From Streptomyces diastaticus subsp. diastaticus (GTDB lineage Bacteria > Actinomycetota > Actinomycetes > Streptomycetales > Streptomycetaceae): DNA of 64,000 nt. A model generated the notes under the pieces. The model was not told the origin of the DNA, did no database searches, and saw nothing but the letters and a program-made list of their open reading frames with translations. The DNA lies in contig NZ_BLLN01000005.1 in assembly GCF_011170125.1 (NCBI RefSeq), positions 1,984,001 to 2,048,000 on the forward strand. The letters run 5' to 3'. Each line of letters begins with the position of its first letter. Position 1 is the first letter of the stretch. The translations under genes were made by a program, and so were the position numbers. Positions 42,498-47,359 of the stretch are shown one piece after another.

Positions 42498-43980
<1,483 letters not shown>

Positions 43981-44268: not shown

Positions 44269-44691
44269 ATGAACGTGAAGAAGTCGTTGACCACCACGCT
44301 GGGCGTCACCTCGGCACTGCTGCTGGCCGCAGCGCCCGCCCACGCCAACTGGACGAGCTCCATCGGCAGTGCGGGAACCGGATTCGAGTCCCGCCGCTGG
44401 GCGGACAAGAGCTACTCGCAGATCTGGTTCAAGGGCTGCACACGGCAGGGCGGCTCGGAGAACAGCGTTGACGTGGGGATGTGGCGGGACGTCTCGCTCC
44501 AGCCCGACCACTTCTACGGTTCGAAGCACTTCACCGCCTGCTTCAGCAGCAGCACCTCCAACAGCATGGGCGAGTGGAACGGGCTCGCGGACGGCAGCTA
44601 CTACTTCAAGCTCGAGTCGGTCGGCGGAGGAAAGAACGGACTCCTCTGGGTCAACACCGTGACAGTTGACACCACGCTCGCCGACAGCTGA
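44269..44691 (+). CDS. Small secreted protein of unknown function, first gene of an ABC operon
   Basis: A 140-residue exported protein. The signal peptide is 1-26 (SALLLAAAPAHA, cut after Ala26), leaving a mature part of about 114 residues rich in Ser, Gly, Tyr and Trp. It has just two Cys (57 and 91), likely one disulfide. Phrases such as ADKSYSQIWFKGC, HFYGSKHFTACFSSS and GEWNGLADGSYYFKLESV suggest a beta-sandwich. I do not recognise the family; it is too long and lacks the motifs of lactococcin-972. The order secreted protein, permease, permease, ATPase suggests the ABC proteins export it, protect against it, or sense it. Confidence 0.85.
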   Translation: MNVKKSLTTTLGVTSALLLAAAPAHANWTSSIGSAGTGFESRRWADKSYSQIWFKGCTRQGGSENSVDVGMWRDVSLQPDHFYGSKHFTACFSSSTSNSMGEWNGLADGSYYFKLESVGGGKNGLLWVNTVTVDTTLADS

Positions 44692-44710
44692 CTCTCATCC
44701 GCAGCCAGAC

Positions 44711-44737
44711 GAGGGGCGCCCACCGAGGGCGCCCCTC
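44711..44737 (+). terminator. Intercistronic stem-loop between secreted protein and permease
   Basis: GAGGGGCGCCC (44711-44721), loop ACCGA, perfect 11-bp complement at 44727-44737. It lies 20 bases after the first stop and 26 before the next start. It would let most transcripts end here, raising the secreted protein over its ABC partners. Confidence 0.7.
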
Positions 44738-44763
44738 GCTCCCTTCCAGAACGTGGAGAACAA

Positions 44764-46053
44764 GTGAAGGTACGCACGCTGCTGCGGGCGAGCAGTGCCA
44801 CACGGGCAGCCCCCTTCGCCCTAGGCATCGTTCTCGTCTACTTCTACTTCGGCAGCGGCCTGCCTCCCGCCAGCACCTTCGGCGACGCACCTGCCTTGGT
44901 CGCCTGGCCGCTCGCCGCGACCGCCCCTCAGGCCTACGCCGTCGCAGCGGCACTCGGCGCATGGGAGGCCGGCCGGCTCGCCAAAGCGGAAGTCTGGCAA
45001 CTGGCCCCGTCGCGGTCCCGCTGGGTGATCGCCGCCCAGCAATTGGCGCCGCCTGTTGCCCTGGCCTGGGCCATGCTGATACTGGGCCCACTTCTCGCGT
45101 TCCTCCACTTCGGAACGTGGCCGACCATCGTCAGCCTCGGGCCGCTCCTCACGGGATTCGTCCTGTCGGCCGGGTTCGGCATCATCGGATTCGGCGTGGG
45201 CAACCTACTCCCCCCCATCGTCGCCGCCCCACTGACGGGGCTCGCCGTGTTCATCCCGGTGAGCTGGTCCTGGGCTTCCGGGACATGGTGGCTGCGCCAC
45301 GTGTCGGGACTTTTCGGTGACGTTCCGTCCTTCGGCGAAGCGATCCCCTTGACCACGTTGACCCCGCCCCTCCTCCTGGTGGCGGGGCTGGCCCTGGGCA
45401 CGTGCGCCTTCTGGGTCCGCCAGGCCCCCATGGCGGTCCGGGTCCCTCTCGGGGCCGCTATCGCGTTGCTGGGGACGTTCAGCGCCTACACCTGGACACA
45501 CGACTGGGGCCCGAAGCCACCCTCCACCTCGGTGAACGTCGCTCTGAGCTGCGCGGGACACCGGCCCGAGGTCTGTATGCCCACCAAGACCGCCGATGAT
45601 CTGGCCACGGTGCGGGCCACGACCGCCAAGGTCATCGGTGATCTCCGCGAAGCGGGTGTCAACATCACCCCAGAACGCGTCACCGACAGCCTCGCCGAGG
45701 GCAGGGACCCGCGGCCCTCCACACCAGACGTGTGGCACGTAGGCCTGACCCGCGCGTCGGAGGCCGGGGCACTGCCGTCAGCACTGCTCGCGACCGCCAT
45801 GCAGCCGCCGTGTGCGAAGCCCGACGTGCTCCAGACACGGAAGCTCATGCTCTGGGGGGCCGACATCATCGGGCGCGGGGCGGCATACCAGGAGTGGCTG
45901 GCCAAGGAGTCGGAGCCCATACCCGCCAACACCCCGCAGGCCAAGCAGTCAGTCCTCACCGAGGTGAAGAACGTGCTGGACAAGCCGACGGTGTCCCAGC
46001 AAGCGTGGTACGTGGAGACGATGGCTTCGGCGTGCCAGAAGGGGTCCCAGTGA
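44764..46053 (+). CDS. Membrane permease with C-terminal extracytoplasmic domain
   Basis: A 429-residue protein. Residues about 15-235 contain six hydrophobic helices (for example PFALGIVLVYFYFGSGLP, LLTGFVLSAGFGIIGFGVG, TLTPPLLLVAGLALGTCAF, VPLGAAIALLGTFSAYT). The last 190 residues are soluble and contain four Cys (LSCAGHRPEVCMPTK, MQPPCAKP, MASACQKG), suggesting two disulfides outside the membrane. GTG 44764 has GGAG upstream. It looks like a permease of an ABC-2-like exporter; the extra domain may contact the secreted protein. The family is not named with confidence. Confidence 0.72.
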   Translation: MKVRTLLRASSATRAAPFALGIVLVYFYFGSGLPPASTFGDAPALVAWPLAATAPQAYAVAAALGAWEAGRLAKAEVWQLAPSRSRWVIAAQQLAPPVALAWAMLILGPLLAFLHFGTWPTIVSLGPLLTGFVLSAGFGIIGFGVGNLLPPIVAAPLTGLAVFIPVSWSWASGTWWLRHVSGLFGDVPSFGEAIPLTTLTPPLLLVAGLALGTCAFWVRQAPMAVRVPLGAAIALLGTFSAYTWTHDWGPKPPSTSVNVALSCAGHRPEVCMPTKTADDLATVRATTAKVIGDLREAGVNITPERVTDSLAEGRDPRPSTPDVWHVGLTRASEAGALPSALLATAMQPPCAKPDVLQTRKLMLWGADIIGRGAAYQEWLAKESEPIPANTPQAKQSVLTEVKNVLDKPTVSQQAWYVETMASACQKGSQ

Positions 46054-46631
46054 TCTGGCTCAAGGCCCGCCGGGCCCACACGGCGCTTCCGGCCGGCCTG
46101 CTCGCCCTGTTCGCGCTCGTGTTGCTGGTCCAGGACAGCGAGATGGTGCTTCCTTCTCTCCTGTCCGGGCTCCAGGGCACCCCAATCCTCCTCACGGCCC
46201 CGGTGGTCATCACCACCGCCCTCATCTTCTGCCTCAACTCCCGCCTCCCCTCTGCGGAAATCTCCGGGACCCGGCGCGTAGCCGCCCTTGACGTCGCCCT
46301 GACTGCCACCTACCTCCTCGTGGTGACAGTGGGGTGCATGGCTCTCGGTGAACTCCTGAGTTCCACGGAAGCGGTCGCGGTGGGCCGGAACTCCGCCTTC
46401 CTCGTCGGCCTCGCACTGTGTGCACGCCCATGGGCCGGGGAAGCGGCGACCTTCGTCCCGGTCGCCTGGGTCGTGGTCGTGCTGGTCCTCGGTTTCCGCC
46501 CTACGGGCGACCCCTACCCGTGGACAGTCACCCCCGAGCCCGTCGGCGCTCCGCACGCGGCAGTCGCGGCCGTCCTGGTTCTGGTGGCCGGGCTCGCCGC
46601 TCTCTACTCGACCTCCAGGAAGATGCCATGA
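46050..46631 (+). CDS. Second membrane permease-like protein
   Basis: A 193-residue protein with about five to six TM helices (LPAGLLALFALVLLVQDS, TAPVVITTALIFCLNSRL, LDVALTATYLLVVTVGCMA, AAVLVLVAGLAALYSTS). GTG 46050 overlaps the previous stop (GTGA), and its own stop overlaps the ATPase start (ATGA). No family motif is visible; it presumably pairs with the larger permease. Confidence 0.72.
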   Translation: MIWLKARRAHTALPAGLLALFALVLLVQDSEMVLPSLLSGLQGTPILLTAPVVITTALIFCLNSRLPSAEISGTRRVAALDVALTATYLLVVTVGCMALGELLSSTEAVAVGRNSAFLVGLALCARPWAGEAATFVPVAWVVVVLVLGFRPTGDPYPWTVTPEPVGAPHAAVAAVLVLVAGLAALYSTSRKMP

Positions 46632-47359
46632 CCCTCGCACTGCGCGACTGCACGTTCGCCTACCGAAGGCGCCGGCCGACCCTCCGCAACTTCTCCTATG
46701 AACTCCCCCAGGGCCTGACCATCCTGCTCGGACCCAACGGAGCCGGAAAGTCCACCCTGCTCCGGCTCGCCGCCTCCGTGACCCACCCCCAGTCGGGCAG
46801 CGTCACCCTGGACAGCTTCTCCAGCCGGGACAAGGAGTTCCGGCACCACGTGGCCTGGATGCCCCAGAACATCACCCCCATGCCCTCGCTCACCTGCCGT
46901 GAGTACGTGGCGTACGTGGGCTGGCTCAAGGGCATGACGCGGAGCGAAGCCTGGCGCGAGGCGCGCAGAGCACTCGCGCGAGTCGAGCTGACCGAGAAGT
47001 CCGATGTACGGTCCAGTCAGCTCTCGGGCGGCCAGTTGCGCCGGGTCGGCGTGGCATCGGCGCTGGTGCACCAGGCACGCGTACTCCTGCTCGACGAACC
47101 CACCGCGGGTATGGACCCACGCCAGCGCAGAATTTTCCGCGACATCCTCACCAGCCTCACGGACGAGGTCCAAGTCCTGCTCTCCACCCATGACGTGGGC
47201 GACCTCGCCGAGGAGGCCGACCATGTCACCGTGCTCAGCGACGGAAAGATCCTGCACTCCGGGACCACGCCGTCGTTCCTCGGTCTGGCACCGCGGGGGA
47301 CCGCGCCAGGCAGAACGGCGGAGGGTGCGTACATGAGCCTGCTCCACCACGACGGGTGA
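46628..47359 (+). CDS. ABC transporter ATP-binding protein
   Basis: A 243-residue ABC ATPase: Walker A LLGPNGAGKSTLLRL, Q-loop WMPQNITPM, signature SSQLSGGQLRRVGVASAL, Walker B VLLLDEPTAGMDPRQRR, and switch His STHDVGDL. The type is that of ABC-2 exporters. It energises the two overlapping permeases. No other genes follow before 47498. Confidence 0.95.
   Translation: MTLALRDCTFAYRRRRPTLRNFSYELPQGLTILLGPNGAGKSTLLRLAASVTHPQSGSVTLDSFSSRDKEFRHHVAWMPQNITPMPSLTCREYVAYVGWLKGMTRSEAWREARRALARVELTEKSDVRSSQLSGGQLRRVGVASALVHQARVLLLDEPTAGMDPRQRRIFRDILTSLTDEVQVLLSTHDVGDLAEEADHVTVLSDGKILHSGTTPSFLGLAPRGTAPGRTAEGAYMSLLHHDG

Follow-up and report, generated by a model that had tools for sequence, protein, structure and literature searches.

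Lactococcin 972 leaves the cell by the Sec route. It is a lipid II-binding bacteriocin, and the orf2 and orf3 genes of its locus could encode an ATP-binding cassette (ABC) transporter involved in immunity, according to passages of PMC4055356. In this locus (PF09683; lcn972-orf2-orf3), which is known from a plasmid and has related loci in Streptomyces, a gene for a small protein with a signal peptide comes first and is followed by genes for a permease and an ATPase. A similar order is found in a 64,000-nucleotide stretch of the Streptomyces diastaticus subsp. diastaticus genome (contig NZ_BLLN01000005.1, positions 1,984,001 to 2,048,000; here called the window), where a four-gene cassette at window positions 44269 to 47359 encodes a small, predicted secreted protein (SEC), two permeases (PERM1 and PERM2), and an ABC ATPase. 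This cassette is unnamed and recurs on Streptomyces chromosomes and plasmids; we recovered 119 full cassettes, of which 108 are distinct, and recurrence on this scale points to more than chance. Lactococcin 972 appears to offer the nearest known layout, with the arrangement shared and the parts nonhomologous as far as sequence comparison can tell. The original prediction for this DNA, that the layout recalls bacteriocin loci without matching the known ones, is borne out to that extent, since the layout is like that of lactococcin 972 and no sequence relation was found.

Four open reading frames on the forward strand were confirmed in this genome of 7.08 Mb, in the order SEC, PERM1, PERM2, ATPase. 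SEC occupies positions 44269 to 44691 (140 amino acids), PERM1 positions 44764 to 46053 (GTG start, 429 amino acids), PERM2 positions 46050 to 46631 (GTG start, 193 amino acids), and the ATPase gene positions 46628 to 47359 (ATG start, 243 amino acids). Four bases are shared by PERM1 and PERM2 (46050 to 46053) and by PERM2 and the ATPase gene (46628 to 46631), and 72 nucleotides (44692 to 44763) separate SEC from PERM1. Coordinates and reading frames therefore agree with the layout first proposed, namely, four genes with four-base overlaps except after the first. A perfect stem-loop of 12 bp lies inside the SEC-PERM1 gap, at positions 44710 to 44738 of the same strand.

The signal peptide of SEC spans about residues 1 to 26 (44269 to 44346) and ends in AHA as judged by eye, with which hydropathy agrees; it is plain in sequence and has no evident lipobox. 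The mature part (44347 to 44688) has 114 amino acids with two cysteines (Cys57 and Cys91), and we infer from these features that it is secreted and carries a disulfide. Its predicted structure is an eight-strand beta-sandwich (pLDDT 95), and the fold matches to this model, which include GOLD, CBM6, TNF-like lectin, and sugar- or ligand-binding beta-sandwiches, are all weak. The earlier statement that SEC belongs to no known family still holds, as SEC had no Pfam or NCBIfam match at an E value of ≤1. The SEC profile had no match among PDB sequences at an E value of ≤10, and a Pfam search with 29 SEC relatives gave scattered sub-threshold matches only, to 8 families. Nor did a known enzyme inhibitor family, which the original prediction had named as a finding that would speak against it, emerge from these Pfam and NCBIfam searches of SEC and the sub-threshold matches of its relatives. 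The inhibitors SSI and SMPI were rejected as candidates because SEC has no Pfam match and neither family is among the 8.

PERM1 has the six-helix core fold of ABC-2 (type V) permeases plus a seventh helix at about residues 223 to 245, giving seven predicted transmembrane helices in place of the six first described. Given the seventh helix and an N terminus inside, the C-terminal domain (about residues 250 to 429) would lie outside the membrane. The external domain with four cysteines that had been described could be located on this predicted topology, with C263, C271, and C350 present in 59/59 aligned rows and C424 in 64%, a figure affected by the trimming of relatives' rows to the profile match. 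Against DUF7224 (PF23866; cut-off, 27 bits), PERM1 scored 25.7 bits, and 27.1 bits in a whole-genome search; 53 of 56 PERM1 relatives match this family at an E value of ≤0.01, and our literature search found no paper on DUF7224. PERM2 shows about six hydrophobic stretches and had no Pfam or NCBIfam match at an E value of ≤1. The ATPase has intact Walker A, LSGGQ, Walker B, and H-loop motifs and is a generic exporter-type ABC protein whose best NCBIfam matches, PQQ_ABC_ATP and DrrA, are far under their cut-offs. The cassette thus shares a six-helix core and an exporter-type ATPase with ABC-2/type V transporters of the NosY, TarG, and KpsM kind but differs from them in having two dissimilar permeases, of which one carries an additional helix, the seventh, plus an external cysteine domain, and in the secreted-protein gene in front. 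A known defence system was also considered and rejected, as PADLOC yielded generic ATPase matches and none for SEC, PERM1, or PERM2.

Among 150 relatives, 7 have lactococcin 972 matches, from which eight stretches were fetched (L194 to L201). A permease of about 700 amino acids and an ATPase directly follow the lactococcin 972 gene in L195, L196, L199, and L201, and do not in L194, L197, and L198; L200 has an ABC pair (915 and 239 amino acids) about 2.3 kb from that gene. One lactococcin-locus permease was tested and resembles DUF1430 weakly (20.9 bits; cut-off, 28.2), and PERM1 and PERM2 had no DUF1430-like match in Pfam or NCBIfam. The Streptomyces lactococcin 972 loci had no PERM1 or PERM2 match at an E value of 1e-5 and no ATPase match at an E value of 1e-35, and the lactococcin 972 model found nothing over its cut-off in the whole window genome. 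When SEC was aligned to lactococcin 972 with hhalign, 12 columns aligned, within the signal peptide only. Membership in the lactococcin 972 family was therefore rejected, because SEC has no PF09683 or NCBIfam match, the alignment is limited to the signal peptide, and the permeases are unrelated. The solved structure of lactococcin 972 (2lgn) is not among the 50 matches listed for the SEC model by Foldseek/VIA-align, and other matches may include it.

Another relevant protein is UmbB, a subunit of the umbrella toxins, which like SEC is a small secreted Streptomyces beta-protein and which acts in antagonism, according to parts of PMC11062931. The same source describes UmbB as having an extended disordered N terminus and ten strands and as accompanied by umbA and umbC; its cryo-EM passage places the Umb complex in PDB, and the term “ABC transporter” is absent from its main text. 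UmbB membership was rejected, since SEC has no PDB sequence match at the threshold given above and no umbA or umbC lies beside SEC in the window. Among the titles and abstract starts that we searched, none concerned this locus; papers on it may exist nonetheless.

Linkage was assessed in 78 fetched loci plus the window (79 loci with 88 SEC genes), with ABC genes sought within 5.5 kb. Genes for PERM1, PERM2, and the ATPase adjoin 81 of the 88 SEC genes, and the adjacent SEC copy is upstream on the same strand; the other seven include two with the ATPase alone, three with a different ABC, and two with no ABC. The co-occurrence of all four genes for which a profile search had been proposed is thus observed beside 81/88 SEC genes, and with 2/88 beside none, SEC is not a protein that is widespread without the ABC genes. 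More than one SEC gene is present in 7 of the 79 loci, with four in L029. In L254:546-3687, L256:6373-9338, and L257:3685-6670, divergent SECs stand directly before a different ABC consisting of an ATPase and two permeases; four of these six permeases match ABC2_membrane_2 or _4, and one more in L254 does so weakly, mostly near or under the cut-off. SEC-like proteins therefore seem, by sequence, to have partners in two kinds of pump that are unrelated to each other. No PERM1 was found at an E value of ≤1e-5 in the genomes of L032, L238, L254, L256, L257, or L040. With the Pfam model, a distant ABC of the DUF7224 type (L266) was detected in the genome of L257 (G054). The ATPase-only loci are L040 and L258; the ATPase of L258 is a decayed fusion, and its genome carries a PERM1 elsewhere. 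Single open reading frames that join a piece of SEC to a piece of the ATPase, with the permeases not found, occur at L113:7427-8668 and L258:5643-6884 and may represent a decaying cassette.

By profile, SEC is present in 68 of 392 Streptomyces genomes; a single-sequence search found it in 17 of the 150 relatives. A class-wide draw of 394 genomes contained SEC in 13 (7 of 137 genera) and PERM1 in 36 (17 of 137 genera). PERM1 was listed for 12 of these 13 genomes with SEC; in the thirteenth (G759, L380), SEC lies next to an ATPase gene and a weak PERM1. Among the 23 PERM1 loci of the draw at an E value of ≤1e-30, 12 have SEC and 11 do not, with SEC remnants at two of the latter (G661 and G747). 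A reverse scan seeded with the ATPase, in which 80 of 98 confirmed loci were kept, gave 22 loci without SEC by profile and two more with a degenerate SEC only (L050 and L113), some of them at contig ends. We also tested 31 hand-chosen entries from the ATPase, DUF7224, and class-wide scans in which the ABC lacked SEC, and these formed 25 groups by shared DNA; SEC remnants were found within 1.5 kb upstream in 3 of the 25 (L050, L382, and L373). Loss is asymmetric, with SEC rarely found without the ABC and the ABC frequently found without SEC, and the pump family extends beyond the cassette.

SEC matches are also present on 12 Streptomyces plasmids, three of which (L300, L301, and L302) were inspected. 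L300 carries one full cassette, and L301:13908-25923 (Streptomyces anulatus plasmid NZ_CP109318.1) carries two within 12 kb, one per gene order; in both, the genes are annotated as hypothetical protein and ATP-binding cassette protein. A search of 50,697 phage records gave no SEC match at an E value of ≤1e-3, and a phage origin was rejected accordingly.

DUF7224 was matched in 26 of the 150 relatives, and we read 13 further DUF7224-type loci (L262 to L274), judging signal peptides by a simple rule or by eye. A small cysteine-rich secreted protein of another kind lies upstream in L266:8104-8448, L269:8467-8730, and L273:4739-5068, the last with a DUF7224 match under the cut-off. SEC-like proteins are upstream in L268 (profile, 8e-4) and, by eye, in L267 and L272, and yet another kind of secreted protein was seen by eye at L270 and at L357 of the class-wide set. 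L262 to L265 and L271 have no such secreted protein upstream, and L274 is a fragment. The window genome has a third PERM1-like locus, L351:4921-7558 (G000:C9, a 25.6-kb contig), with no SEC or other secreted candidate upstream. In L121:6709-9310 and L124:6709-9412, a small gene that by eye resembles one for a tyrosine phosphatase comes after PERM1 and the ATPase, and no PERM2 or SEC match was found there.

The 108 distinct cassettes occur in two gene orders, SEC-PERM1-PERM2-ATPase in 67 and SEC-ATPase-PERM1-PERM2 in 41, and the window genome has both, the second in G000:C2 at about 128.8 to 132 kb. On quick trees of these cassettes, the order changes once on the SEC tree and twice on the ATPase tree. 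A Mantel test gave an r of 0.74, with 0/500 permutations as high; host relatedness was left in. The median ratios of nonsynonymous to synonymous substitution rates (dN/dS) in 51 close pairs were 0.28 for SEC, 0.20 for the membrane part of PERM1, 0.39 for its external part, 0.31 for PERM2, and 0.15 for the ATPase. All parts are constrained, and the external part of PERM1 is the least so; SEC, with a median below that of this external domain, exceeded a dN/dS of 1 in 1 of the 51 pairs.

The stem-loop after SEC has a folding energy of −35.9 kcal/mol (z = −4.23, dinucleotide shuffles). The gap after SEC folds with a z of <−2 in 60 of the 101 foldable cassettes among the 108 distinct ones (36/62 with PERM1 next and 24/39 with the ATPase next), as estimated with mononucleotide shuffles and start codons assigned by a simple rule. 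This element is perhaps a partial terminator or the 3′ terminus of an mRNA, allowing more SEC than ABC protein to be made. An RNA element search gave no Rfam match at the gathering score, and neither a consensus sigma-70 promoter nor a U-tailed terminator was found.

Genome logic suggests an antibacterial or signalling role for the cassette, and by analogy with lactococcin 972 we give roughly even chances to the reading that SEC is a bacteriocin-like secreted protein for which the ABC provides self-immunity. SEC would be a beta-sandwich of 114 residues, stabilised by a disulfide, that is exported through Sec and acts extracellularly, with related actinobacteria as its most likely targets. An ABC-2 transporter would be assembled from PERM1, PERM2, and the ATPase, the external four-cysteine domain of PERM1 would recognise SEC, or else its target or damage, and the transporter would protect the producer; toxicity, immunity, and who binds whom are what we infer in this scheme. 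We favor it because the parts are linked and co-inherited, because SEC is rarely without the pump whereas many pumps lack SEC, because there may be several SECs per pump and SEC comes first, before the stem-loop, and because the distribution is patchy and partly plasmid borne and a second kind of pump can pair with SEC. We also count in its favor the other small secreted cysteine proteins that precede some SEC-less DUF7224-type ABCs. A broader version, with chances that we put a little below even, is an actinobacteria-wide class of disulfide beta-sandwich protein bacteriocins, each with an immunity pump of its own, an ABC encoded by three genes in which the toxin is read by the external DUF7224 domain, the two halves being modular. 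If so, about one in six Streptomyces (68/392) would have a gene-encoded protein antibiotic together with ready-made immunity, encoded by genes annotated as hypothetical and in some cases on plasmids. This would add to the small-molecule antibiotics and umbrella toxins of the most studied antibiotic-making genus, and DUF7224 would gain a role.

Several observations weigh against immunity to a toxic SEC. Toxicity, binding, and immunity are predictions for every family member. SEC is no more divergent than the permeases, and no positive selection on it was found in the 51 close pairs, so there is no sign of an arms race. Partial correlations of SEC with the parts of the pump are all alike (0.16 to 0.19), so that the external domain does not stand out as the partner of SEC. 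Orphan SECs without an ABC exist in L032 and L238, and in L302:1226-1648 (Streptomyces clavifer linear plasmid NZ_CP107795.1) SEC lies near the end, with no ABC genes in 7.6 kb. No SEC trace remains in 22 of the 25 SEC-less ABC groups, and many of these may therefore never have had SEC. Moreover, a hydrophobic non-SEC protein of about 120 to 220 amino acids is upstream in 9 of the 36 class-wide PERM1 loci (L355, L358 to L361, L363, and L374 to L376); as distant ABC members are often preceded by another membrane protein, immunity would be a late use of the pump.

These observations leave other readings to be weighed. NosD is a secreted beta-helix protein, on which NosFY probably acts with the use of ATP. 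The ABC of the cassette might likewise use ATP on SEC outside the membrane, to load, mature, or move it, with SEC as an envelope or ligand-handling partner, and would then serve neither for the export of SEC nor for immunity to it; such coupling accounts for parts of the data, SEC differs from NosD in being modelled as an eight-strand sandwich of 114 residues rather than a beta-helix, and we regard this reading as unlikely. A toxin-free resistance module, in which a foreign antimicrobial or a lipid intermediate is bound by SEC outside the cell and expelled by the ABC, has a parallel in LanI with LanFEG. It fits the patchy spread, the plasmids, the ABC-only loci, the rare SEC-only loci, the divergent SECs before other ABC-2 permeases, and the weak fold matches that include sugar- and ligand-binding beta-sandwiches, and it accounts for the asymmetric loss nearly as well as a bacteriocin does. 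However, SEC without an evident lipobox would diffuse away, and the multiple SECs per ABC (7/79 loci) would need a separate reason; we consider this explanation unlikely. It seems quite improbable that SEC only accompanies the transporter as an accessory secreted protein, such as a signal, an adhesin, a lectin, or a component of the matrix: weak matches of its beta-sandwich to folds of the GOLD, CBM6, and TNF-like lectin kinds and the existence of orphan SECs are in keeping with such a role, but the tight linkage and the congruent trees over 108 cassettes are not. If the bacteriocin interpretation is wrong, the question stays why SEC is so rarely found without the ABC and the ABC so often without SEC.

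In the window, the cassette is flanked by argG and a methyltransferase-like gene, and argG (42498 to 43943) sits between lon and the cassette. From lon to the downstream regulator, the distance is 7.0 kb in the window versus 2.0 to 3.6 kb in six of eight relatives; in the remaining two, lon is about 13 kb from the regulator (L303) or there is no lon in the stretch (L304). Neither argG nor the cassette genes had a match at an E value of 1e-20 near the regulator in any of the eight stretches, which suggests that argG, like the cassette, is an addition in the window. The methyltransferase gene, which was not a query in that search, adjoins the regulator in 8/8 stretches. The site between lon and the regulator is variable, possibly reflecting repeated insertion there.

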